Part shown: one piece after another, positions 2,592 to 24,100 of the stretch | Numbering within the stretch: the first letter of the stretch is position 1 | How the letters are laid out: every line of letters starts with the position of its first letter | Virus record (IMG/VR): IMGVR_UViG_3300031227_004812 | Coordinates: 1 to 26,093 of that record | Length of the DNA stretch: 26,093 nt | Source of the DNA: a virus | Reading direction: 5' to 3' (one strand) | Translations under genes and position numbers: made by a program | Notes under the pieces: model-generated | The model's input: only the letters and a program-made list of their open reading frames with translations | The model's database searches: none | Told to the model about the DNA's origin: nothing

Positions 2592-3141
2592 AGTTAGAGT
2601 AACTTTATTTGTTAAGCACGTTCAAAAATTATTTCCTAAGATAACTATCGTTGAAATGGTTAAGTTTATTCTTAGATACCAGCGAGTTAAGGTTCATCGT
2701 GATTGGGTAACTAGGACAATGAAAGATATTGATTATGAAAAATTCTTAGAGGAAGAGGGATTACTTGAAGAAGGTAAAAAAGAACTTGTTGATAAAACAA
2801 AGGAAGATGCTTTGATGATAACAGATGAATCAGTTCAGGATGTAAAGCTAATGATAAGCAATTCTAAAGAGCAAGCTAAAAGAATCAAAGGAGTTATGAT
2901 GGATGAGATTGATGATAGATTAGAAAATGATGCTGATACATTTACTAATGATGAATTGATTAGAGGCTCTGTTAGCATGGATAAAATAGAAAAGGACACT
3001 GAAGAAAATAGACCAATAAATATAAACTTTAATATAGACGAATTTAATAATGTCTATGGACAACTCAAAAATAAACAACAACAAACTAACACCAGCGGAG
3101 GAGAAGACTCTCCTGACGATGGAGAAATACAAGAAGGATAA
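2533..3141 (+). CDS. Probable terminase small subunit
   Basis: A 202-residue charged protein immediately upstream of the large terminase. The first 60 residues (through FVKHVQKLFPKITIVEMVKFI and RVKVHRDWVTRTMKD) look like a helix-turn-helix DNA-binding region. A highly acidic helical centre follows, then a tail containing RPININFNIDEFNNVYG and a polar Q/T/S/D-rich end. Small terminases recognise the packaging site and load the large subunit. The assignment rests on position and the HTH-like start, since these proteins are poorly conserved. An alternative start is ATG 2554. It overlaps the zinc-ribbon gene (59 bases) and the large terminase frame (92 bases), suggesting translational coupling. 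Confidence 0.6.
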   Translation: MSTTNEKMRKGKPERITGNEVRVTLFVKHVQKLFPKITIVEMVKFILRYQRVKVHRDWVTRTMKDIDYEKFLEEEGLLEEGKKELVDKTKEDALMITDESVQDVKLMISNSKEQAKRIKGVMMDEIDDRLENDADTFTNDELIRGSVSMDKIEKDTEENRPININFNIDEFNNVYGQLKNKQQQTNTSGGEDSPDDGEIQEG

Positions 3142-4516
3142 TCCATATTTGTTTTATGTGCCGAATGTGAAGGCAGAACAGTTCATTAAACAATTAGGTA
3201 ATTTAGAAGATGGTCGTAGAATACATTTATTTATTGGCGGTAATGGATCTAGTAAGAGCTGTACGCTAGCTAATATAGTAGCCAATATAATATTTCCAAA
3301 GAAGAATCAATACTTTGATTTTGGAATATTTAAACATTGGCCATTTGAAAAAAGACTTAGGATAGTATCAGATCCAACTACTATATCAGAAAAAACTATA
3401 CCAGAATTTCTTAAATGGTTTCCTAAAGGGCAATTCAAAGCCACTAAGGATAAGAAAAGTTATTTTTCTAAATTCTATGTTCCCGAGACTGGATTTACTT
3501 TTGACTGCATGACGTATGATCAGTCAGCTAAGGAATTTGAATCAGTAGATTTAGGAGCTGTAATGACGGATGAAATCTGCCCAGAAGATATTTGGAATGC
3601 TTGCTTGTCTCGTTTGCGTGTAGGTGAGGGTGGAGTGCAGTGTGGTTATTTTACTCCCTTAGCTAGTGCCGGACATTTGTTTGATAAATACATTGATAAC
3701 CCAGAACAGACTTTAGCTCATCATACTTATATAACTGTATGGGATAATGTTGAGGGCGATAAGACTAGAGGATTTTTGAAGAGAGAAACTATTGATAGGA
3801 TGATAGCAACTTATAGCGAAGAAGAAAGAGAAGCCCGTATTGAAGGTAAGTTCATGCATTTAGGTGGAACTATATTTAAAGAGTTTGATCGAACTAGACA
3901 TTTGATAGATAAAACTTTACCAGAGATTGTTCAGCATATTAAAAAGAAAGATTGGAGAGTAGCTTATGCTATTGATCCTCATCCAGTTGTTAATACTGCA
4001 GTGCTATTTATGGCACTACTACCAGATGGTCGGAGGGTATTTATTGATGAGATATGGAGTGCTAGTGATTGTAAGATAATATCTAAATTGATAAATGATA
4101 AACTAGATTATTTTGAAAGGCTTGGTGCTAATACAATGAAGCGAGTTGGTATCATAGATCCTAGCGCAGTAATAAAAGATGCCCTGAGGGGTGATAGTTC
4201 TTGGATAGAGGACTTTAAGAAAAATGGCGTTAGTTTAATTAAAGCCACTAAGGACAGAGATAGAGCTGATGATTTAATACGACAAGAGCTAAGAGGAACA
4301 GTAGAACCTAATTTATTTTTACTTAAAGGGACTACCTGTCGAACTTCATGGGAGATGGCTCGATACCAAAAAGATCCTAAGAATCCTACTAAGAGATTAG
4401 ATAAGGATGATCACATGGTTGAAAATGCTGGAAGACTATTGATAGCTTACCCAGTAAAATTATTTAATAAGACAAGAGAAGAAAAAAGAAGAAAGATAAT
4501 CCAAGGGATTGGGTAA
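3050..4516 (+). CDS. terL: Terminase large subunit
   Basis: A 488-residue ATPase and nuclease that pumps DNA into the procapsid through the portal and cuts the concatemer. The ATPase domain shows the P-loop GGNGSSKS (residues 63-70), a Walker B strand with catalytic acid (VMTDE, 171-175) and a coupling motif (GYFTPLAS). The RNase H-like nuclease domain shows three acidic clusters expected to hold metal: D309 in AIDPHP, D370 in IIDPSA, and D453/D454 in DKDDHMVENAGR. Length is normal for the family. The first ATG (3050) gives a 92-base overlap with the small subunit frame. ATG 3056 or 3119 (MEKYKKDNPY) are alternatives, and none removes a motif. Confidence 0.93.
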   Translation: MSMDNSKINNNKLTPAEEKTLLTMEKYKKDNPYLFYVPNVKAEQFIKQLGNLEDGRRIHLFIGGNGSSKSCTLANIVANIIFPKKNQYFDFGIFKHWPFEKRLRIVSDPTTISEKTIPEFLKWFPKGQFKATKDKKSYFSKFYVPETGFTFDCMTYDQSAKEFESVDLGAVMTDEICPEDIWNACLSRLRVGEGGVQCGYFTPLASAGHLFDKYIDNPEQTLAHHTYITVWDNVEGDKTRGFLKRETIDRMIATYSEEEREARIEGKFMHLGGTIFKEFDRTRHLIDKTLPEIVQHIKKKDWRVAYAIDPHPVVNTAVLFMALLPDGRRVFIDEIWSASDCKIISKLINDKLDYFERLGANTMKRVGIIDPSAVIKDALRGDSSWIEDFKKNGVSLIKATKDRDRADDLIRQELRGTVEPNLFLLKGTTCRTSWEMARYQKDPKNPTKRLDKDDHMVENAGRLLIAYPVKLFNKTREEKRRKIIQGIG

Positions 4517-4778: not shown

Positions 4779-5063
4779 ATGAAAAAACAAAAACAACCAA
4801 CAGCGGTAGGTAACTATTGCACTATAGAAAAAATACCACAAGCAGAAACAAAATCAGGCGATATATTAATGCCAAGCAACCAAAGAGCATTACTAACAAA
4901 AGGAAAAGTATTATCAATCGGTAAAGGCGAAGACATAGAAAAATTAGGATTAATAATTGGTGAGGTAATTATTTATAACGAAGTAGAGAATAACACTGTA
5001 GCAACTGAAAACGCAGGAAGTGTATTTTTCATCAGAAATGATTTTATATACGGGAAAGAATAA
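4779..5063 (+). CDS. groES: GroES-like co-chaperonin
   Basis: A 94-residue protein matching the 10-kDa co-chaperonin in length and layout. Residues 14-20 form the first strand. Residues 20-34 (PQAETKSGDILMPSN) correspond to the mobile loop, with ILM (29-31) at the place of the hydrophobic tripeptide that docks on GroEL. KGKVLSIGKG (41-50), GEVIIYN (61-67) and a terminal strand (VFFIRNDFIYG) follow. The loop is shorter than in E. coli GroES. The protein should form a seven-subunit lid on a chaperonin. It lies 23 bases upstream of the phage chaperonin, in the usual groES-groEL order. Codon choice favours ACA, GCA and AAA more than the head genes do. Confidence 0.85.
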   Translation: MKKQKQPTAVGNYCTIEKIPQAETKSGDILMPSNQRALLTKGKVLSIGKGEDIEKLGLIIGEVIIYNEVENNTVATENAGSVFFIRNDFIYGKE

Positions 5064-5086
5064 AATAACAAATAAACAAAAATAAC

Positions 5087-6691
5087 ATGGCTTACAAAGC
5101 AGTAAGAGTACCAACAAAGGACTTTAAAAAAATTACATTTAGAGAAGAAATAATTGAGAAAATTATACCCGGAATCCAAAAAGTTGCCAGAGCAGTAAGC
5201 GCAACACTTGGTCCTAATGGAAAGAACTCAATTATTAAACTCAACATTGGACATAGATATACAAAAGACGGTGTAACCGTAGCTAGGAATATTAGTTTCG
5301 AAGATCGGTATGAAAATACTGGAGCTGAATTAGTCAGAGAGGTAGCCGAGAAAACCTGTAAAGAAGTTGGAGATGGCACTACTCAAAGTATCATCTTAGT
5401 TAATTCTCTTATCAATAATGGCTTAGATGAAATTAAGAATGGTAAGCGAGTAGATGAATTAGCTCGTGAGATTAAAGCAGATACTGATTTAGTTATTGGA
5501 GAACTACAAAAAGAATCAATTGATATTAAGAACAAGCAACAGATAATTGATGTAGCTAGTATTTCAGCTAACGACAGAGAATTAGGAAATTTAATAGGTG
5601 GTGTATACCACAAGATTGGTAAAGAGGGTGTGATTATCACAGAGGAAAGTGGAACCCTAGAAACTTATGTAGAAGAGGTAGATGGAATTAGACTTGATAA
5701 GGGAATCATCTCACCATATTTTATTACTAATCAAGAAAGATTAAAATCTGAACTAGACGATGTTTATATATTTATTTCTGATTTGGAGATAGCTTCATTT
5801 GCTCCATTTGTAGAATTATTGAAGAGGATGAGAGCAGATAACAATAATAATCCAATATCTATATTGGTGATAGCCGACAAGATAACTGGAGAAGCGGCGA
5901 GCGGGTTTATGTTGAACCATGTAAGGGGTCACATCAGATGTGCTTGCATAGAAACACCAGATAATAAGATTATTAAAAATGAATTATTAGAAGATTTAGC
6001 GGTAATGACTGGAGGTAAATTTATCTCAAGAGATTTACAAGAAAAGATTGCTGACCTAGATATAGAATCTCTTGGTAGAGCAAATAAGGTGATATCTGGA
6101 AAAGATAATACAACCATTGTTGGACCAAAGGGAGTAAAGAAAAATATTAAAAATAGAATAAATTTATTAAAGGAAGAATTTGAAAAAACAAAAAACAAAC
6201 ATTTAGAATTTAGAATTAGTGGATTAAGGAATAAGATTTCAATTTTAAGGGTTGGTGGAAGCACTCAATCTGAAATTGAAGAAAAGAAATATAGAATTGA
6301 GGATGCTGTTGAATCTACTAAGGTAGCAATGAAGGGTGGAATAATAATTGGAGGAGAGATTTCACTACTAAATGCTTCACAAAAATTAAATGATGGTGTA
6401 GTCAAAAGAGCTTGTACTGCTCCATTTAAAAAGTTATTGGAAAACATTGATAGGAATTACAAGGATATTATAGATAAAGTAGGTGGCAAGATTGGCTTTA
6501 ATGCATCTACTGAGAAAATAGAAAATTTCTTTAAGGCAGGAATAATTGATCCTGTACTCGTACCAATAACATCACTTAGAAATGCTGCGTCTGTTGCTGT
6601 GAATATATTGAAAACTGATAATGTCGTTTTCAACTATAAAGATTTAGATGAGCCAACAGATAGCCCGCTGACATTAAATGCTACTGATTAA
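5087..6691 (+). CDS. groEL: GroEL-like group I chaperonin
   Basis: A 534-residue chaperonin subunit that folds proteins inside an ATP-driven ring. Recognisable are TLGPNGKN (40-47), TKDGVTVAR (59-67) with the conserved Asp61, VGDGTT (94-99) with catalytic Asp96, KIGKEGVIITEE (176-187), the hinge/apical LDKGIISPYF (203-212), and RIEDAVEST (403-411) with Asp406 in the place of the ATP-hydrolysis Asp398 of E. coli. Oddities: the nucleotide-pocket GGG is GGE (422-424), the apical APGFGDRRK segment is replaced (TPDNKIIKN), and the Gly-Met tail is absent. Being encoded between terminase and portal suggests folding of capsid or fibre proteins. It should work with the GroES-like protein next door. 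Confidence 0.93.
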   Translation: MAYKAVRVPTKDFKKITFREEIIEKIIPGIQKVARAVSATLGPNGKNSIIKLNIGHRYTKDGVTVARNISFEDRYENTGAELVREVAEKTCKEVGDGTTQSIILVNSLINNGLDEIKNGKRVDELAREIKADTDLVIGELQKESIDIKNKQQIIDVASISANDRELGNLIGGVYHKIGKEGVIITEESGTLETYVEEVDGIRLDKGIISPYFITNQERLKSELDDVYIFISDLEIASFAPFVELLKRMRADNNNNPISILVIADKITGEAASGFMLNHVRGHIRCACIETPDNKIIKNELLEDLAVMTGGKFISRDLQEKIADLDIESLGRANKVISGKDNTTIVGPKGVKKNIKNRINLLKEEFEKTKNKHLEFRISGLRNKISILRVGGSTQSEIEEKKYRIEDAVESTKVAMKGGIIIGGEISLLNASQKLNDGVVKRACTAPFKKLLENIDRNYKDIIDKVGGKIGFNASTEKIENFFKAGIIDPVLVPITSLRNAASVAVNILKTDNVVFNYKDLDEPTDSPLTLNATD

Positions 6692-6705: not shown

Positions 6706-8595
6706 ATGTCTTCAATGGTAGAAAATCCTAAAAAAGAGGATACAACTAAAAAAATACCGAAGCAAGGTGATAAAGAGCAGAAGATAGTTGATAATATTGA
6801 AAAAAAATATTCAGACTATAAAAGTAAAAGGGTAAGAACTTATCCTCAATTTGGTATATCTTCTACTGGCGGAGAAAGAACTCTTGTTGATGCTATGGAC
6901 TATGGCAATAAGCTCGTTGATAATTACAAAATTAAAGCAAATTGGAAAGAAGATTGGCAAGCTAATATTTCTGATATTACGCTTCATTCTAAGTTAATGG
7001 CTATATTAGCCAACATGACTTTACAGAAGTTTAATGTCGAATATAAACCGATGTTCTCGACTGATAGAAATTCTGTTTTCTTAGGTAATGTTATGGATGA
7101 TTATGCTCGTTGGATTACTACCAAAGAAAGGAATGGACACTTAGATCAATTGTTTATAGCTTTAAAGGCTTTGAGAGAACCAGCCGCTATAAGATTTATT
7201 GGTTATAAAAAATTACCATATTTTGAAGGTCTTGATTATCAGCATGTAAAGTTAGATGAATTTTATCCTGAGAGATTAGATACATTTTTTATGAATGATA
7301 TTCATAGATGTATTTGGAGGAAGGTTTGGAATTATGATGCTTGGAAAGATTCTCGTGAAAACAATTCTGCATTTAATAATGTTGATAAAGTAAAAAGAGC
7401 AGGAGCTGTCAGAAGTGACGGAGAAACATTCTTTGATATATCAGTGGATGTAGGAGAAGATCAAGTAGAAGAAAAACTTTGGTTTGACGAAGTTGCTAAT
7501 GAATTTCATATTAGCGCTAATCAAATTTTGATTACTAGACCAGGAACTAAATTAACTTCTATTAGTAAGGGTGGAAAGATACCATTTGCTAAATCTGTGT
7601 TTGAACCATTTGGACCAAACTTCTTTTATGGCAGACCATTAGCAATGATAATGGGACCTAATCAGGAAGCTATTGATTTCATGTTTAATGCAATGTTTGA
7701 TAAGACAATGCTTGATGTGATGAGACCAATATTAGTTGGTGGAATAAATGACATAGTAGATGATTATATTGGTCCTGGAATATTTACTGAAGTTGCTGAT
7801 GTAAATCAAATAAAGGAAATGGATGTTAAGCCATTAGATTTAACATCATTCAGAGTGATGCAAGAATTGCAAAGTAGGAATGCGTTTGCTTCTGTTGATG
7901 CTGCCGGACAAGGAAAGGTTAGTTTGGGTAATCCAACTGCTACTGAAATAGAGCGTGTGCAGGAACAGCAACAAAAGCTATTTGGTTTATTCAATACAAT
8001 GATTAATGACGGTCTTATACAAGAGCGTGATTTAATGGGATATATAATTATTGATAAGTATTTCAAGCGTCCAGATATGAAACAGTTTTTCATTGAGAAC
8101 GCTAAATTAATGAATGGCAAAGTAGGAACTAAAGTAATTAGAATTAAACCTAAATCTAAATTACCACTAAGGGATGAACTTGGAGTATCACCAGATTTAA
8201 GAGCTGAAGCTGAAAAAGATTTTGATGGAGAAACTCAGATAATAGAATTTGATCCAAGGATATTTGATGGATATAAATTTATGACTATTAGTACCGTAGC
8301 TCCAGCAATCGAAAATAGTAAGACTTTGAAGAAAGCAATGCTTGATAGAAAACTTGTTCAATTCTATAATCAGCCTGAATTATTTAATCCCGAAACAGTT
8401 AAAAAGATTGATGTTGAAAATAACAAAGATATACTTGGCGAACATGCTAGTGAATTATTAGGTAACCAGCAACAACAAGCACCACAGGGACTCCCAGATG
8501 TATTGGGAGGTGGTTCCCCTGCTACTGGACCAAATAGTAGCTCACCAAAGGCATTACCCGATCCAAGTAAATTACTAGGAGGAGAACAAATATAA
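6706..8595 (+). CDS. Portal protein
   Basis: A 629-residue protein between the terminase/chaperonin block and the head genes. The polar, lysine-rich N-terminus is followed by an alpha/beta body with W-rich segments (KANWKEDWQANI) and then a characteristic portal stretch (GRPLAMIMGPNQEAIDFMFN, about residues 308-327) leading into a long helical region. The C-terminal tail is rich in Gln, Pro, Ser and Gly (QQQQAPQGLPD). The portal is the dodecameric DNA gate of the procapsid and binds the terminase. Size, position and sequence character fit podovirus-type portals. Start ATG 6706 or 6715; no Shine-Dalgarno sequence. Confidence 0.75.
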   Translation: MSSMVENPKKEDTTKKIPKQGDKEQKIVDNIEKKYSDYKSKRVRTYPQFGISSTGGERTLVDAMDYGNKLVDNYKIKANWKEDWQANISDITLHSKLMAILANMTLQKFNVEYKPMFSTDRNSVFLGNVMDDYARWITTKERNGHLDQLFIALKALREPAAIRFIGYKKLPYFEGLDYQHVKLDEFYPERLDTFFMNDIHRCIWRKVWNYDAWKDSRENNSAFNNVDKVKRAGAVRSDGETFFDISVDVGEDQVEEKLWFDEVANEFHISANQILITRPGTKLTSISKGGKIPFAKSVFEPFGPNFFYGRPLAMIMGPNQEAIDFMFNAMFDKTMLDVMRPILVGGINDIVDDYIGPGIFTEVADVNQIKEMDVKPLDLTSFRVMQELQSRNAFASVDAAGQGKVSLGNPTATEIERVQEQQQKLFGLFNTMINDGLIQERDLMGYIIIDKYFKRPDMKQFFIENAKLMNGKVGTKVIRIKPKSKLPLRDELGVSPDLRAEAEKDFDGETQIIEFDPRIFDGYKFMTISTVAPAIENSKTLKKAMLDRKLVQFYNQPELFNPETVKKIDVENNKDILGEHASELLGNQQQQAPQGLPDVLGGGSPATGPNSSSPKALPDPSKLLGGEQI

Positions 8596-10408: not shown

Positions 10409-11137
10409 ATGACAGAACCAATTTTGGACGATAAGGGAAAGGAAATCCCTGCTACCCCAGTCCCGGGCGAAGACGGAAAAAAACCAATCGATACTGATAT
10501 TCAAAAGCAAATCGATGAAGGCATAGTGAAAGCCACTGCCGAGCTAACAACTAAATTAGAAGTTAAAACTTTACAGGCAGATCAACTGACTGTAGAGGTA
10601 GGTAAATTAAGGAAAGATAATAAGCAACCTTTGCTTGCTCCAGTACTTAATAAGCCTGAACCAAAAGTTGATCTTGATGATGACTTGGGTGACGATAAAG
10701 ATTTTGATACTCAGTATCGAGAACGACGCACCGAAGAAAAGAAGGAAGAATATAAGACTAGAGTTGAAAGAGTTTTTGATAAGTTCCTCAATTCTGATGG
10801 TATTGAACTTGATGGTACAATAGATTCTAAATTTAGAAGTAAAGCTAATCGAATGCACCTTGGAGATACAGATGAAGAAGTCATGGAAAATTTAACTATG
10901 ATCTATACTGGTCTCAAACCTAAACCTGAGCAACAGCCAAAGGATAAGGACAAGGATAAAGAAGATGATATTAATATTGGTGATGGTGGCAATGAAGTTA
11001 CACCTAAAAAATCTGATAGTAAGTGGGCAACTAAGAAACTGAATAAGTTTGAAGAAGCTGCCGCAGAACATTTTCCTGGTGGTGAAAAACCATATAGAGA
11101 AAAGATGCAGAAACTTGAAGATAAAAAGGGTGAATAA
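10409..11137 (+). CDS. Probable scaffolding protein
   Basis: A 242-residue, very polar protein with no cysteine: a proline-rich N-terminus, a coiled-coil-like stretch (about 27-72, IQKQIDEGIVKATAELTTKL and following), an acidic linker (DLDDDLGDDKDFD), a helical block and a C-terminal basic/acidic segment with KPYREKMQKLEDKKGE. Scaffolds guide capsid subunits into a procapsid and then leave. The assignment rests on composition, size and position just before the decoration and capsid genes, which is the usual scaffold site. A capsid maturation protease is unlikely, since no catalytic motif is seen. Confidence 0.6.
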   Translation: MTEPILDDKGKEIPATPVPGEDGKKPIDTDIQKQIDEGIVKATAELTTKLEVKTLQADQLTVEVGKLRKDNKQPLLAPVLNKPEPKVDLDDDLGDDKDFDTQYRERRTEEKKEEYKTRVERVFDKFLNSDGIELDGTIDSKFRSKANRMHLGDTDEEVMENLTMIYTGLKPKPEQQPKDKDKDKEDDINIGDGGNEVTPKKSDSKWATKKLNKFEEAAAEHFPGGEKPYREKMQKLEDKKGE

Positions 11138-11180: not shown

Positions 11181-11780
11181 ATGAGATTTGCAGGTTTTAA
11201 TCCTTTAAGGTTAAATAATGGATCAATGAATCTACCTGGCGTGGAAACTTTCGTTATCGACGGAAGTGTTACAGTCAATCAAGGTAGTGCATTAAAGATT
11301 GGAGTAGCCGATGGAGTAGATGTAGCTGATGCTAATTCAGACGAAATCTATGGCTATTGCCTTGCATTCATTATTAAACCAGGGAGCTTGAATCTTCCTC
11401 TTGAGCTAGTAAGTACAAATAGTACATATAATGATGGTACTTATACTGCTGCAAGAGATGGAGATACTTTTGCTGCTGCTTCTGATAATGCTACTGATAA
11501 ACAAATTTCCGCGGTGGTTATGCCAGCGAGGGGACTTATTTGTTCAGCGCATTTAGATGCAGACGCAGGAACAACTACAGGAAGTAATATTCCTGGATAC
11601 TTTATCGATATATTGGCAGGTAACGCCGCTGTTTTGCTAGACGAATCAGCTGCTTCTACCACTTCTGCCAATTATTCGTTAACCACAGGAATGAGTGCTA
11701 ATTCAGCAGTCGATCCTTCTTTCCCAGATACTGATGACAGGCGAATCCTAGTGATCGCTAATGAAGTTACTGGAACCTAA
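11181..11780 (+). CDS. Probable head decoration protein
   Basis: A 199-residue protein rich in Ala, Thr, Ser, Gly and Asp with predicted beta structure throughout and no membrane segment (FVIDGSVTVNQGSALKIG, GYFIDILAGNAAVLLDE). It sits between the scaffold-like gene and the major capsid gene, the place where many phages encode the capsid-stabilising (lambda gpD-like) protein. Sequence similarity to a specific family is not obvious to me. A short CTTAA/TTAAG hairpin (11159-11172) lies just upstream. Confidence 0.5.
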   Translation: MRFAGFNPLRLNNGSMNLPGVETFVIDGSVTVNQGSALKIGVADGVDVADANSDEIYGYCLAFIIKPGSLNLPLELVSTNSTYNDGTYTAARDGDTFAAASDNATDKQISAVVMPARGLICSAHLDADAGTTTGSNIPGYFIDILAGNAAVLLDESAASTTSANYSLTTGMSANSAVDPSFPDTDDRRILVIANEVTGT

Positions 11781-11799
11781 TTAATATTACATAAATTGT

Positions 11800-12747
11800 A
11801 TGCATTTAAGTTTATCTTGGGCAAAGTCCATGGAGGGTAATATTGATGAGTGGATCCATAACGGATTTAAACGTCATAGCGACTGGACTTCCCAAATACT
11901 AAACATAGAAAACAACGATGGATTCCTTAGGTTGGAAGACTCATGGGGACCTAGATTGATTTCTAAGTCTGGCGAGGCGCAATCCTCACCATCTGCCGAC
12001 AGGCAAAAAGGCTTCGAAACAGTTGCTTCACCACAAATCTTCAAGCAGAAGATGGTTGTGTCAGAGCAATATGTTACTCGTGGCAAGTATTCTCAAATTC
12101 AACGTGAAGCTGAGGATCTAGGAAAGGCAACAATGGAAACTCTTAATATATTTGGTGCGCAACCATTTATTGAAGCGTTTACATCTACTACTCTTTTCTA
12201 TGGTGATGCTAAACCTCTAGCTTCTAGTTCACATACTAGAGCTGATGGTGGTACAGCCATTTCTAACACTTCTTCTACTTCTATTCCATTGACTGATGCG
12301 AATCTAGAAACTGGAAGAATTAACATAAAACAGCAAAAAGGTGGTACTGGACAGAAATTGGCAATTGGATCAAACCTATTGTTAATGGTTCAGGAACAGC
12401 AAGAAAGAGAAGCTGTTGTTATCACTGGTTCTACTAGAAGGTCTGGTACTCCAAATAACGACTTGAATTTCTATCTTGGTCTTATTGATACCTTTGTTAA
12501 TCCATTTATCGGTGAAGACATCTCTGATCTAAATGGTGTTGCTGGTTTATCAACTTCATGGTTCTTGCTTGCTCGTGATGAGCATCAAATCATCATGTCT
12601 TACGAACAACGCCCAGTATTTACTACTTGGGATGACGAAGATGCTGATACCATGACAACTAAGGTTAAATTTAGCGCTTTGGTAGGTTGGACAAACCCAC
12701 TTGCTACTTATCATTCTAAAGGCGATAACTCAGCTTACAGTGGTTAA
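11800..12747 (+). CDS. Major capsid protein, HK97 fold (Mu gpT-like character)
   Basis: A 315-residue protein with the features of an HK97-type major capsid subunit. The N-terminal arm is followed by MVVSEQYVTRGKYSQIQREA (long helix region). A typical FYGDAKPLASSSHTRADGG stretch (about residues 138-156) comes next, then a beta-rich P-domain part and a C-terminal region with VKFSALVGWTNPLATYHSKG. The FYGDxKPLxSxxH pattern is recurrent in Mu gpT-like capsid proteins. It forms the hexamers and pentamers of the shell and is a plausible client of the phage chaperonin. Expression is likely coupled with scaffold and decoration genes. Confidence 0.8.
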   Translation: MHLSLSWAKSMEGNIDEWIHNGFKRHSDWTSQILNIENNDGFLRLEDSWGPRLISKSGEAQSSPSADRQKGFETVASPQIFKQKMVVSEQYVTRGKYSQIQREAEDLGKATMETLNIFGAQPFIEAFTSTTLFYGDAKPLASSSHTRADGGTAISNTSSTSIPLTDANLETGRINIKQQKGGTGQKLAIGSNLLLMVQEQQEREAVVITGSTRRSGTPNNDLNFYLGLIDTFVNPFIGEDISDLNGVAGLSTSWFLLARDEHQIIMSYEQRPVFTTWDDEDADTMTTKVKFSALVGWTNPLATYHSKGDNSAYSG

Positions 12748-18116: not shown

Positions 18117-21100
18117 ATGAAAAACTTTATAAAAGGATTTTTATCATCATTTGTAATAACTCTAGGACTTTCATTGTCTATAGGGGTTTTTGCTGGTGTT
18201 GGTGATATAAACCTTATTTCTAAAATAGCTCCATATAATGATGGTTTTACTGGTATGGTAGATGCTGAACAAGTAATAGCAGGAACATTCCCTGGTTCTT
18301 TTATATTTGATACTGATTTATCTGTTGTTGGAACAGCTTCTACTTCTCAACTTTGTTTTAATGATGCTACTTGTATGACTACTGCTCCAGCTGGAAGTGG
18401 TTGGGCTTGGTCTACATCTTCAGAAGCATATTACTGGGGTGTTAATTTTCCATTAGAATTTGCTAGTTCATATAATGCCACTACTACTCTAAATGGTCTT
18501 ACTATATCTAATTACTTAGCAACAGCTAATTTCTCTACTTACTTTGATACAGATTACAATGCTACCACAACTCTAAATGGCTTTACCCCGGCTAGTTATT
18601 TACTATCAGCTACAGCCGCTACTACTTATCTCGGTTTAACCGATTGGTATTCGACTACTACTTGGAGTGGCAATCTTACAGTTGACGGATTTGCTTCATC
18701 AACTGCTCTATGGACATCAGGTAATTCTCATGTTGGTGGTGATCTTACGGTAGATGGCAATGTCACGGGTAGCAACTTAGCTATTTCTAACTGGAACACA
18801 GCTTATGGTTGGGGTAATCACGCTAGTGCTGGTTATTATGCTTCTGCAGACTTTAATACTGATTGGAATAGTACTTACAATGCTACTACTACCCTAAATG
18901 GTCTTACTATATCTAATTACTTAGCAACTGCTGATTTCGATACTACAGCTAACACATGGGCTAATGCCTCAAGTACAATAGGGTCTAAAAGTTATAATGA
19001 TTTGGAAGGTAGTCCATCAGACAGAATAACTGATGGCACTAATCTAAGCTGGGCTGGTGATACTCTAAATGTCATAGACAGTCCGACATTCGCTGGTACA
19101 GTTACAGTTAATACCGATTTACAAGTAGATGGTAATGCTACTACTACTGGAGATTTAGTTGTAGAGGGTAATACTTCTTTAGCTACCACTACTATGGACT
19201 GGACTAATTCTCAATTCTATTTTGAAAACTATAGTGTTGATATGGAAGGAACTATTATTAATTTTCCACAGGTAAGACCAATAACAGCAGTAGATTTAGG
19301 TGGAGTAAATATTGGAATTTGGAAAGGTGCTTTAATGATTATGGAAGGTGAACCGAATGAAGATTTTGAAATTTCAGGTAATCCAATGATTGGTTTTGCA
19401 GAAGCTAATTTAGAAACTGAAGCTACAATTACATTTAACACAACTACTCAGGAATTAACTTATGATGCTAAAGGTGGGCATATTTTTGATAATGCAATTA
19501 CTATTAATGAAGATAATTTGTTAGTTAATGGCAATTCTACAACTACTGGTAATACTTATCTTGGAACAACAGTAGGATTGAGTGGGGAATACATTGATAC
19601 TTGGTCTGATTTATCTGCTTATGTTAGTAGTGGAGGGAGCTGGGCTACAACCTCTGAACGATACTTCTGGAATAATACATCTACTTGGGCTTATTATGAC
19701 ACTAATTGGGATAGAAATTACAACGCCACTACTACTTTAAATGGTTTAACTATATCTGATTATCTAGCGATAGCTAATTTTTCTACTTATTTCGATACTG
19801 ATTACAACGCTACTACTACCTTAAATGGCTTTACTGATAATTCTACTAACTGGGATGGTGCTTTGGCTAAAGCTGACTACTATGCTACTACAACTTGGGC
19901 AGGTGGTAATAATGATTTAGTTGTTACTGGTAATGCTACCAATACAGGTATTTCATTTTTAGGAGATACTACTAACGGTTATCGTATAGGTAAAAAGAAT
20001 CTTGGAGGAATGGGTGAAGTGAAAACTATAACTCCATATAACCTTAATTCAAATACAGGGATATTTGAAGGTAAATTATATTTTATTGATAGTCTTTTTT
20101 TTAACGGAAGTGAAACTGATTTACCAAGTATCAGTTTTGCAGATAGAAAAAACTTTGTTAAAGATGTAAGAATTACTTATACCACTACTACTGATGTATT
20201 AAGTTTTACTGAAGCTGAGGAATATACTTTTGATGATGCTTTACTTGTTACTGGTTTTGCTTCGACTACTCTTGGTCTTTATACTCAAGGTAATTTAGAA
20301 GTTGAAGGTAATGCTACAACTACTGGTGATTTATATGTAGAGGGTAATACTTATTTACTTGGTCCAGATGTGTATCTAAGAAATGATGGCAATCCAAATT
20401 TCCATCTTCAAAATAGTGATGCTTCAAAACAGACAGGTTTTCTTTTTAATTTAGCAACCGAAGTTCTTGAATTTAGTGGTGCTTCTGGTGGTTATAGTTT
20501 TGATGCCGATACAGTCTTTAATGGTTGGGCTACATCTACAAATGGATTTTTTACTCAAGGTAATGGACATTTTGGTGGTAATTTAACAATAGATAATAGT
20601 GCTACTACTACTAATGATAGTTATATAGGTGATAAATTAAAAATAGGCGGAACTCAACAATACGATATTTATGAAGATGGTGCTGTATTATATGTTCAAG
20701 GACAAAGTTCTGGTTCTGGTAGTATTATGGGATTTACCTCAAAAGATTCTGATGGAACTGATTTAGTAGCTTTTGGTGTTTTTGGTGAAAATGATTTTGC
20801 TGGTAATAATCATCTTCTTGTATTTGGTTGGGACAATACTGAAGATAGATATAATATTGAAACTCAAGATAATGGCACTGGAGTTGCTAAAAATTTATAT
20901 ATAGAAGCTGATGATGTCGGAGCAAGTTTAGAATTGAAAGTTGATAATACTATTGCTATGGGTGGTAATTTAACTATTACTGGAAACGCTACAACAACAG
21001 GTCAAGGTATAATGGGATTTGGTTCTAAGATAGGAGATAATCCTAGTGGTCGTTATTTATCTTTCGAAGAATTAAGCGTTGGTGCATTAGGAACAGTATC

Positions 21101-22697
21101 AGTTATTAATCCAGAGGGTTCAAGTGGAGGTGCTATTGAAGATGGAATGATGGGTATATATAGTGGATTAAATCTTATAGAAAATGATGATAATAATGAT
21201 AGCGACCCAGGTATTAATTTTGTAGCTAGAGATGTAGCTTCTACATTTAATTTAGCTTCAATATCTTATGCCACTACTTCTGCATATATGAATTTTGAGA
21301 GTGCTGATAGATATGTCTTTGATGGTCAAACCCACATAGAAGGAGATTTAAAGATTGTAAATGATGATGATGCTATTGTATATTTCCAAAATGATGATGA
21401 TACTGCAAATTCTCAAATCTTTTTTGATGTATCTGATGACCATCTAGATTTCCAAAATGCTAGTGAATATAGTTTTGATAGTGATACTATAATAGATGGT
21501 TATGCCTCTACCACAGGAGGTCTTTATACACAAGGTGATGGACATTACGGAGGAGGTTTAACTGTTGATAGTAGAGTTGGATTGGGAACAGAAACACCAG
21601 ACGGAACATTACATGTACACACAGGAAGTGCAGGAGTAGTAAGCCCATTAGCAGCATACGACGACATAACAATAGAAAACTCGACACAAGCAGGAATAAC
21701 TATTTTATCACCAGATAACGCATATAGAGGAATCATGTTTGGTGGACCTGATGATGCAGATGGCGGAAGAATTTATTATGGTGGTTCAAATGTGGCAGAC
21801 ATAGACGAAAGAGACTCTTTGCAATTTTTTACAAATGGAACAAGAAAAGTAACAATAGACACAAATGGAAAAGTTGGAATAGGAACTAAGAGTCCAGGTA
21901 CTTCTCTCGTTGTTAACTCAGCTTCTGGAACAGGAATAACAATTGAAACATCAAGAACAATAAATGATAATACAAATATGGGATTAATGGGAATTTTAGC
22001 ATCAGCACAAGATGCAGGATATACACAATTAGCAGATATTCGTTTTGTGACTGATGGCTCAACGATAAACAAACGTGGAGGTTCAATAGAATTTTTTACT
22101 CAAGCAGATAATGACGCAAATAATAGGTTAAAAAGAATGACTATTGCTAATGATGGAAAAGTTCTAATGCCATATGTTTATGGAGATACAGTCGGAGCAA
22201 CCAATAGAGATTTATATATTGATAATACTGGTAAATTAGGATATGTAAGTTCTGGTGAAAAGTATAAAGAAAATATTACAGACTTAGAAAAATCTGATAC
22301 CAGCTGGATTTATGATTTACAAACAAGAAAATATGACAGAAAAGATGGTTCTAATTATGGTGAGTTTGGAATGGTAGCTGAAGAAGTAGTTGAAGTTTAT
22401 CCTAAAATGGTTAGTTTCAAACGAGGAGAAAGAACAGTTACCACAACCAATGAACTTGGGGAAGAAATAACAGAGGTAGAATACTTCGAAACTGATATAC
22501 CAGAAACAGTAAATTATGGTAGCCCACATTTTATTACTGCATTATTGCAACAGGTACAAGAACTATTTGCTAAAGTACAAATGGCATTTAGTTGGAATCA
22601 AGACAATGAAGATAGAATTGAGCTATTAGAAGATGAAAATGAAGCTCTAAAGGCTCGTTTAGATAAATTAGAATTAAATAATGAACTAGCTAAATAA
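18117..22697 (+). CDS. Large fibre protein 2 with signal peptide and S74 domain
   Basis: A 1526-residue protein. Residues 1-26 form a signal peptide ending GVFA. A short C-x6-C loop (STSQLCFNDATCMTTAP) follows. The long shaft is built from repeats (NATTTLNGLTISNYLATANF, GNATTTGDLYVEGNT) and several modules ending YxFDxxxxxxGxAST. Near residue 1155 come GIGT-type modules (VGLGTETPDGTLHV, VGIGTKSPGTSLVV). The C-terminus is an S74 intramolecular chaperone: S1379-GEKY-K1384-ENI, then EFGMVAEEVVEVYPKMV, and a terminal coiled coil (about 1490-1526). In this family the Ser/Lys pair self-cleaves after the fibre trimerises. Cleavage should release about 148 residues. Confidence 0.8.
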   Translation: MKNFIKGFLSSFVITLGLSLSIGVFAGVGDINLISKIAPYNDGFTGMVDAEQVIAGTFPGSFIFDTDLSVVGTASTSQLCFNDATCMTTAPAGSGWAWSTSSEAYYWGVNFPLEFASSYNATTTLNGLTISNYLATANFSTYFDTDYNATTTLNGFTPASYLLSATAATTYLGLTDWYSTTTWSGNLTVDGFASSTALWTSGNSHVGGDLTVDGNVTGSNLAISNWNTAYGWGNHASAGYYASADFNTDWNSTYNATTTLNGLTISNYLATADFDTTANTWANASSTIGSKSYNDLEGSPSDRITDGTNLSWAGDTLNVIDSPTFAGTVTVNTDLQVDGNATTTGDLVVEGNTSLATTTMDWTNSQFYFENYSVDMEGTIINFPQVRPITAVDLGGVNIGIWKGALMIMEGEPNEDFEISGNPMIGFAEANLETEATITFNTTTQELTYDAKGGHIFDNAITINEDNLLVNGNSTTTGNTYLGTTVGLSGEYIDTWSDLSAYVSSGGSWATTSERYFWNNTSTWAYYDTNWDRNYNATTTLNGLTISDYLAIANFSTYFDTDYNATTTLNGFTDNSTNWDGALAKADYYATTTWAGGNNDLVVTGNATNTGISFLGDTTNGYRIGKKNLGGMGEVKTITPYNLNSNTGIFEGKLYFIDSLFFNGSETDLPSISFADRKNFVKDVRITYTTTTDVLSFTEAEEYTFDDALLVTGFASTTLGLYTQGNLEVEGNATTTGDLYVEGNTYLLGPDVYLRNDGNPNFHLQNSDASKQTGFLFNLATEVLEFSGASGGYSFDADTVFNGWATSTNGFFTQGNGHFGGNLTIDNSATTTNDSYIGDKLKIGGTQQYDIYEDGAVLYVQGQSSGSGSIMGFTSKDSDGTDLVAFGVFGENDFAGNNHLLVFGWDNTEDRYNIETQDNGTGVAKNLYIEADDVGASLELKVDNTIAMGGNLTITGNATTTGQGIMGFGSKIGDNPSGRYLSFEELSVGALGTVSVINPEGSSGGAIEDGMMGIYSGLNLIENDDNNDSDPGINFVARDVASTFNLASISYATTSAYMNFESADRYVFDGQTHIEGDLKIVNDDDAIVYFQNDDDTANSQIFFDVSDDHLDFQNASEYSFDSDTIIDGYASTTGGLYTQGDGHYGGGLTVDSRVGLGTETPDGTLHVHTGSAGVVSPLAAYDDITIENSTQAGITILSPDNAYRGIMFGGPDDADGGRIYYGGSNVADIDERDSLQFFTNGTRKVTIDTNGKVGIGTKSPGTSLVVNSASGTGITIETSRTINDNTNMGLMGILASAQDAGYTQLADIRFVTDGSTINKRGGSIEFFTQADNDANNRLKRMTIANDGKVLMPYVYGDTVGATNRDLYIDNTGKLGYVSSGEKYKENITDLEKSDTSWIYDLQTRKYDRKDGSNYGEFGMVAEEVVEVYPKMVSFKRGERTVTTTNELGEEITEVEYFETDIPETVNYGSPHFITALLQQVQELFAKVQMAFSWNQDNEDRIELLEDENEALKARLDKLELNNELAK
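18471..19836 (+). repeat. Imperfect direct repeats inside fibre gene 2
   Basis: A segment of about 60 bases coding NATTTLNGLTISNYLATA recurs at 18471-18530, 18876-18935 and 19719-19778. The first and second copies match almost base for base over TAAATGGTCTTACTATATCT. Half copies coding NATTTLNGF lie at 18555-18588 and 19803-19836, and a related one is in fibre gene 1 near 17160. These repeats reflect shaft modules and could allow recombination that lengthens or shortens the fibre. Confidence 0.7.
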
Positions 22698-23017: not shown

Positions 23018-24100
23018 ATGGAATTTATTAAAAAAATTATTGCTAGATTACTAGGCTATAAAGAGTCTGGATTATTACCACTATCACCAGATAAAAGAGA
23101 TTTAGAAATAGGTTCTATTTTTGATTTCTTTGGTGGGTATACTCCTAAGGATAAGGTAAAAGAGATAAAAACTATTTCAATCAAAGATCAAAAGAGATTA
23201 TCTAATTGTACCTTTCAATCTGCAACTGTTCAAAAAGAAGTAGATGAGGGAGTTATATTATCTGCTCGTTATTTAACTGCTAAGGCTTATCAATTAGGAT
23301 TATGTAAATGGCAAGGATATGCTGATATGAGAGTTAGTCAAGTTATATTACAGAAGTATGGATGTTGTGAAGAAAAAGATTGTCCTAGTAATTCAAATCT
23401 TTCATTTGGTGAATATGTAAAAGTTGATTTTGCTAGATTAGACAGACTAGCAGCAGAACATAAGTCTAAGAGTTTCTGGAAAGTTAATAACATAAATGAA
23501 TATTTAAAGGCTATAGATGAAGGACATATAGTTACTCTCGGTATTCCTTGGTACAGTGGATTTAATCAAAGAGGAGGATTTAGAAGTCCTTGGATTATAA
23601 AATATCTTAAAGGGTATTATGTAGGCGGTCATGCTATTACAGGTAAGGGATATAAAAACTCTGAAAGACTAAATATAACTCAAAATAGTTACTCAGGAGC
23701 TTGGGGTGATGGTGGAGATTTATATATCGACTATAAATTCCTAGATAAATATATCAGAGACTATGGAGCATTTGCTAACCTAGATATTGAATACAGCAAG
23801 GAGATTACATCTGAAGATATTATTACTAAGTACCAACTTCAAAATATCAGAGGTAATAAAAATGGAGCAATATATCTTATTTATCAAGGAAAGAAGTATG
23901 CTTACAAGAATGCTAGAGCTTTTATAGCCCGTAATGCAAAACCATACAGTTATAAAGATATGTTTATAATAGTTAAACAAGAAGTAATTGATAAAGTACC
24001 AAATGGAGGATTACTAACTGAGGATATGGGTCAGTATAAAGAGTTAGTGGCTAACCTTAAAGATCCTATAAATGATAACTTTAAAAAAGATGGAAAATAA
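23018..24100 (+). CDS. Papain-family (C1A) cysteine peptidase
   Basis: A 360-residue protein with a papain-like core. The oxyanion Gln58 and nucleophile Cys64 (DQKRLSNCTFQSA) are spaced exactly as Gln19 and Cys25 of papain. The His is in GGHAITGKGY (His205), and the Asn is in TQNSYSGAWGDGGDLYIDY (Asn223), matching the NSWGxxWGxxGY signature. A CC/C cluster (C116, C117, C122) suggests extra disulfide or metal sites. The last 100 residues (YLIYQGKKYAYKNARAFIAR) are a separate small domain. There is no clear signal peptide. Between two holin-like genes it may act in lysis, though a virion or anti-host protease role is equally possible. Confidence 0.8.
   Translation: MEFIKKIIARLLGYKESGLLPLSPDKRDLEIGSIFDFFGGYTPKDKVKEIKTISIKDQKRLSNCTFQSATVQKEVDEGVILSARYLTAKAYQLGLCKWQGYADMRVSQVILQKYGCCEEKDCPSNSNLSFGEYVKVDFARLDRLAAEHKSKSFWKVNNINEYLKAIDEGHIVTLGIPWYSGFNQRGGFRSPWIIKYLKGYYVGGHAITGKGYKNSERLNITQNSYSGAWGDGGDLYIDYKFLDKYIRDYGAFANLDIEYSKEITSEDIITKYQLQNIRGNKNGAIYLIYQGKKYAYKNARAFIARNAKPYSYKDMFIIVKQEVIDKVPNGGLLTEDMGQYKELVANLKDPINDNFKKDGK

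Follow-up and report, generated by a model that had tools for sequence, protein, structure and literature searches.

The 26,093-base stretch of DNA analysed here (referred to as the window) is a linear virus record, IMGVR_UViG_3300031227_004812, that encodes on its + strand a GroES/Cpn10 co-chaperonin of 94 residues (4779..5063) followed by a GroEL/group I Cpn60 chaperonin of 534 residues (5087..6691). As a preliminary description of the window had proposed, the two genes are indeed paired within the head operon, where they lie between the gene for the terminase large subunit (TerL) and that for a putative portal protein. The interpretation favored here, with a probability of about 0.58, is that the phage makes its own GroES-GroEL chamber alongside its head proteins and that the chief task of this chamber is the folding and release of the major capsid protein (MCP), its likely main client. 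From the sequence, we infer the activity and ring assembly of the two proteins, their cognate pairing, their co-expression with the head genes, and the MCP as client. In the proposed mechanism, new MCP subunits would be captured by the phage GroEL at its hydrophobic apical groove, the ring would be closed by ATP and the phage lid, and each subunit would fold inside it before its release and assembly on the scaffold and portal. In phage T4, gp31 is a co-chaperonin that works with host GroEL on the capsid protein gp23. Related phages encode a GroES-like lid near the MCP, which presumably acts on host GroEL in the manner of gp31, and the window lineage has a complete pair in its head operon, so that capsid folding need not use host GroEL. 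Because the phages examined with recognisably related MCPs carry only the lid, the complete pair seems to be an aid to capsid folding that has become independent of host GroEL.

The capsid protein itself provides the principal evidence for this interpretation. The window MCP (315 residues, 11800..12747, + strand) belongs with the Mu gpT-like/HTVC023P-type family, as its alignment to 14 annotated MCPs spans 283 columns (hhalign, 98.7%, E = 4.6e-16); by tblastn, the match to an annotated MCP is weak (1e-5). Members of this family include the MCPs of pelagiphages HTVC023P and HTVC027P, Roseobacter phage CRP-901, Caulobacter phage RLK, Planktothrix phage Pag-Yong1, phage DSL-LC04, Alcaligenes phage QDWS535, and several Manatee Spring phages. 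All 14 GenBank phage genomes whose MCP is related encode a Cpn10 above the Pfam cut-off, and no Cpn60 was found in any of the 14. In 12 of these genomes, Cpn10 lies ~2–3 kb upstream of the MCP gene; the exceptions are vir526, with Cpn10 upstream of TerL, and MW202601, with Cpn10 at another place in the genome. The Caulobacter phage RLK protein gp090c (L155 7062-7493), which is labelled hypothetical, matches Pfam Cpn10 (3.5e-9) and is encoded at the usual site before the MCP. Independently, a published analysis of 82 HTVC023P-type phages includes GroES in their core set of 13 genes (PMC9599517). In an IMG/VR sample of 80 loci of the MCP family (L174-L253), obtained by a scan built on five MCP sequences, all 37 loci with at least 4.5 kb of upstream sequence contain a Cpn10 that ends 1.9–3.2 kb before the MCP, and the fetched stretches of these 37 loci contain no GroEL; the 37 loci are related to one another and are not independent. 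In contrast, no Cpn10 was found in seven phage genomes with an unrelated N4-gp56-like MCP or in the fragments that carry relatives of the window TerL. Four of these fragments (L003, L004, L006, and L011) have an N4-gp56-type MCP, and no member of the window's MCP family was detected in them. As Cpn10 accompanies every genome and locus sampled from the MCP family and is absent with N4-gp56 MCPs and with TerL relatives, the co-chaperonin follows the capsid family rather than the terminase, which points to a general capsid–co-chaperonin link in this Mu gpT-like family. The suggestion in the preliminary description that the pair serves capsid-protein folding thereby gains comparative support (14/14 genomes and 37/37 loci versus 0/7); for its reference to large shell or fibre proteins there is no specific support, given an MCP of only 315 residues.

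Both window proteins can be assigned to their families by sequence and by predicted structure. GroES matches Pfam Cpn10 (E = 4.9e-8, 33.3 bits, cut-off 21.1) and the PHROG family of co-chaperonin GroES (2.8e-7), a PDB sequence search agrees on Cpn10/GroES, and the score is below the NCBIfam GroES cut-offs (25 versus 122). The best Foldseek matches of its AlphaFold2 model are all GroES, Cpn10, or gp31 chains. This model, with the GroES fold, has a predicted local distance difference test (pLDDT) score of only 69. The protein also has a mobile-loop-like stretch, TKSGDILMPSNQRALLTK, in which a hydrophobic ILM is aligned with the IVL of GroES. GroEL matches Pfam Cpn60_TCP1 (E = 7.7e-42, 144 bits, cut-off 34.3), NCBIfam NF009487 for chaperonin GroEL (428 bits, cut-off 352), and the PHROG chaperonin groEL family (1.1e-117), again in agreement with a PDB sequence search, and scores below the TIGR02348 equivalog cut-off (416 versus 582). 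Its AlphaFold2 model (pLDDT 88.6) superimposes on 8wuw with a Z score of 44 and on 4ki8 with a Z score of 43.4 (root mean square deviation of 2.6 Å for 503 residues); thermosomes rank lower (Z of ~36), and the fold is that of a group I chaperonin. Structure prediction, proposed earlier as a check on the assignment, thus returned lid and GroEL monomer models that match Cpn10 and GroEL, a monomer model being silent on the ring state.

The same organization is seen in a second virus. A TerL search of IMG/VR identified one close relative, IMGVR_UViG_3300033064_002458 (G001, locus L002; 47,571 bp), which has an identical gene order and a single Cpn10. The encoded proteins are 88% (TerL), 63–64% (GroES), 83% (GroEL), 87% (portal), and 97% (MCP) identical to those of the window. 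No further close GroEL, MCP, or portal relatives were found in IMG/VR, and a single-protein search gave none. Among the loci looked at, only these two viruses have the pair between TerL and portal. In the window, 262 bp separate the end of TerL from GroES, 23 bp separate GroES from GroEL, and 14 bp separate GroEL from the putative portal; in G001, ~390 bases (L002 12240-12631) lie between GroES and GroEL, and a tRNA-Met (L002 ~11696-11767) lies between TerL and GroES. The ratio of nonsynonymous to synonymous differences (pN/pS) between the two viruses is 0.16 for GroEL, 0.34 for GroES, 0.15 for the portal, and 0.06 for the MCP, values that are approximate at the high synonymous divergence of ~0.4–1.5 across genes. 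Both GroES and GroEL are under purifying selection, and the pair is diverged and fast-evolving. When the window and G001 GroELs are compared with 135 others (137 sequences), the window protein retains 55 of the 72 columns that are at least 97% conserved across the 135. The retained nucleotide-binding and catalytic residues are T30, G32, K51, D52, D87, T89, T90, D398, N479, and D495, and thus include all four catalytic aspartates (D52, D87, D398, and D495).

Several observations weigh against a capsid-folding role. The position of the genes suggests but does not demonstrate co-expression, and the relationship of the window MCP to the Cpn10-linked family is remote (~23% in the profile alignment). 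Two nucleotide-pocket residues of GroEL that are near-invariant in the 135 other sequences are replaced (T91Q and G416E), a feature confined to the window and G001; due to these changes, the ATPase may be altered. The apical groove is likewise changed, by L259A, which is found only here, and by Y199I/F. Finally, in profile comparisons, the window GroES resembles the type found in viral GroES-GroEL pairs (23 bits) more than the MCP-linked type (at most 9 bits). Based on these scores, which are weak evidence for a protein of 94 residues, the pair may have taken the place of the usual lid as one unit, possibly as a general cassette, rather than having arisen by addition of a GroEL to the linked lid. 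Beyond the active site and groove, GroEL lacks residues ~426–437 around the ring–ring contact E434, a stretch otherwise missing only in phage phi14:2, and most ring–ring contact positions differ (K105D, A109N, E461N, and V464D). The protein also has no GGM tail and carries an N-terminal extension of ~11 residues. With the loop lost and the contact positions changed, a changed or single-ring machine is possible. A more far-reaching version of the capsid-folding proposal, advanced here only tentatively, is that a phage lineage with a small genome (~48 kb) freed its capsid folding from host GroEL by placing genes for both GroES and GroEL among its head genes; this GroEL would be specialised, serving one or a few clients, and might act as a single ring.

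The most serious competing explanation, although not a likely one, is that the autonomous pair aids many proteins, such as tail fibres, replication proteins, and lysis enzymes, and that it lies among the head genes only by chance. The distribution of viral chaperonins lends this idea some weight. By tblastn, 271 records of the GenBank phage set match the window GroEL, some of them bacterial sequence, with a best identity of 37%, and at least 539 relatives were confirmed in IMG/VR, this number coming from the first 600 pattern matches. A Cpn10-like open reading frame lies at most 50 bp upstream of GroEL in 55 of the 80 best IMG/VR loci, and adjacent pairs are present in the isolates Flavobacterium phage immuto and Bacteroides phage SJC03. 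The pair as such is therefore already known in viruses and is not rare, and the two isolates place it beyond the environmental sequence from which the preliminary description took pairs to be chiefly known; some phages had already been stated to have both proteins (PMC7185714). Most of the sampled viral pairs adjoin DNA polymerase or clamp loader genes: of the large neighbours in the 80 loci, 101 from outside the window were scanned and 35 of these are clamp loaders, with genes for DNA polymerase or related replication functions also seen, in a scan that excluded neighbours of more than 700 residues, many of them polymerase-like by their first residues. The scan also gave five matches to phrog_2, a TerL family, one being the TerL of the window itself. 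Furthermore, the chaperonin of phage EL works with an endolysin (PMC7185714), the window GroES is of the pair type, as described above, and very large tail proteins of 1135 and 1526 residues are encoded downstream of the head cluster. In contrast, the pair precedes the portal gene within the head cluster of both viruses (14 bp), Cpn10 accompanies the MCP family without exception in the sample, and the 1526-residue fibre has an S74 chaperone domain of its own.

A further explanation, which is improbable, is that the pair stands in for a host GroEL that is missing or incompatible. Relatives of the window TerL are found at 33–38% identity in IMG/VR and in metagenome-assembled genomes (MAGs) of Parcubacteria and Nealsonbacteria, and at 35–38% across Parcubacteria, Nealsonbacteria, and Bacteroidia MAGs. 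Based on the Parcubacteria and Nealsonbacteria relatives, the host likely belongs to the Patescibacteria. No GroEL was detected in 37 of 380 genomes of this group, which would favor substitution, but these genomes may be incomplete and the host is only putative. As GroEL is present in the other 343 (and in 146 of 148 Bacteroidota genomes), its absence from the host is an unlikely reason for the phage pair, and both of the MAGs that hold TerL relatives have a GroEL. The previously raised idea that the pair replaces a host chaperonin unable to fold the phage proteins accordingly keeps a small share of the probability, weakened by these counts. The origin of the GroEL is consistent with more than one source. 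In an LG+G4 tree, the window pair falls in a viral clade on a very long stem, whereas in a mixture-model tree it groups with Patescibacteria (support 44), its stem being 3.2 changes per site long. All of the alternatives tried survive approximately unbiased (AU) tests (viral clade, p = 0.58; Bacteroidota, p = 0.26), so that the phylogeny called for in the preliminary description yields placements without a choice between them. Recent capture from a host was considered and rejected, as no bacterial GroEL among the best matches listed exceeds 41% identity.

It is more doubtful still that the changed pocket and ring interface have produced a slow or ATP-poor holdase, or a single ring, that retains clients without a GroEL-like cycle. 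The substitutions T91Q and G416E, together with the missing loop and altered ring–ring contacts, would fit such a protein, and the phage EL chaperonin, which does not refold rhodanese, comes apart to give single rings in the presence of ATP (PMC7185714). A holdase, however, would need neither the catalytic aspartates nor a mobile-loop GroES, and both are retained. A bacterial groESL misassembled into a phage contig, the chimera that the preliminary description had named as a danger, is ruled out for practical purposes by the same gene order in the independent contig G001 at 81% DNA identity (GroEL-to-MCP stretch), by phage genes on both sides, and by the low identity to bacterial GroELs, no point having been found in its favor.

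The remaining genes of the head cluster are also on the + strand. TerL (488 residues, 3050..4516) matches a PHROG terminase family (5.4e-13). The G001 TerL (L002 8729-11269) contains an in-frame insertion of ~356 residues exactly at the Walker A motif that is absent from the window protein; it begins with Cys, ends with Asn before Ser, matches LAGLIDADG_3 (1.3e-7) and, weakly, Hint, and is intein-like. The putative portal (629 residues, 6706..8595) matches a PHROG head-tail adaptor (3e-4) and, weakly, the portals of the MCP-related phages (hhalign, 42%, E = 2.6e-4, 160 columns). A charged protein of 242 residues (10409..11137) is a putative scaffold by its composition and position before the MCP, with no family match. 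A 199-residue protein encoded directly upstream of the MCP (11181..11780) is 89% identical in G001 and has no family match and no profile match to the equivalent gene of the related phages. Further downstream, the putative tail fibre of 1526 residues (18117-22697) combines repeats of NATTTG-type motifs with a Peptidase_S74 intramolecular chaperone at its C terminus (Pfam, 1.9e-5), and a peptidase-like protein of 360 residues (23018-24100; PHROG peptidase, 2.6e-13; 63% identical in G001) is possibly a lysis or structural protease. Most + strand gene starts in the window have no Shine-Dalgarno-like motif and instead have A-rich leaders, several with AACAA right before the ATG; no Rfam match or tRNA was found in the window. 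Both ends of the G001 contig (L008 start and L010 end) consist of the same ~15-base repeat, CAGGTTAGCACCAC, and the contig may therefore be a near-complete genome broken in this repeat.

T4 is the main case in which it is understood why a virus carries folding machinery of its own and what this folds. The present comparison appears to link an entire capsid lineage to a co-chaperonin, with the complete machine carried by one branch. For a phage whose host is probably one of the Patescibacteria, such a folding system would be out of the ordinary. With one likely client, one lid, and one ring, it would offer a small natural system for phage capsid folding, chaperonin–client specialisation, and independence from host GroEL. 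Among known systems, T4 gp31 is similar as a phage lid for a capsid protein, and the window GroES model matches 1g31 (Foldseek, 2e-3); T4 encodes only the lid and uses host GroEL, whereas the window encodes GroEL as well, with both genes in the head operon. The head modules of the HTVC023P-type phages, CRP-901, Pag-Yong1, and DSL-LC04 share a related MCP with an accompanying Cpn10. They have no GroEL, and their Cpn10, often N-terminally extended, lies between the portal and the MCP, whereas the window pair precedes the portal. Immuto and SJC03 resemble the window in the adjacent GroES-GroEL genes of an isolated phage, but their genomes are 160–167 kb, the immuto pair adjoins DNA polymerase, and their GroELs are 35–39% identical to that of the window. 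Finally, gp146 of Pseudomonas phage EL is likewise a diverged phage Cpn60; it represents the type without a GroES, in contrast to the window, in which GroES is encoded 23 bp upstream of GroEL.
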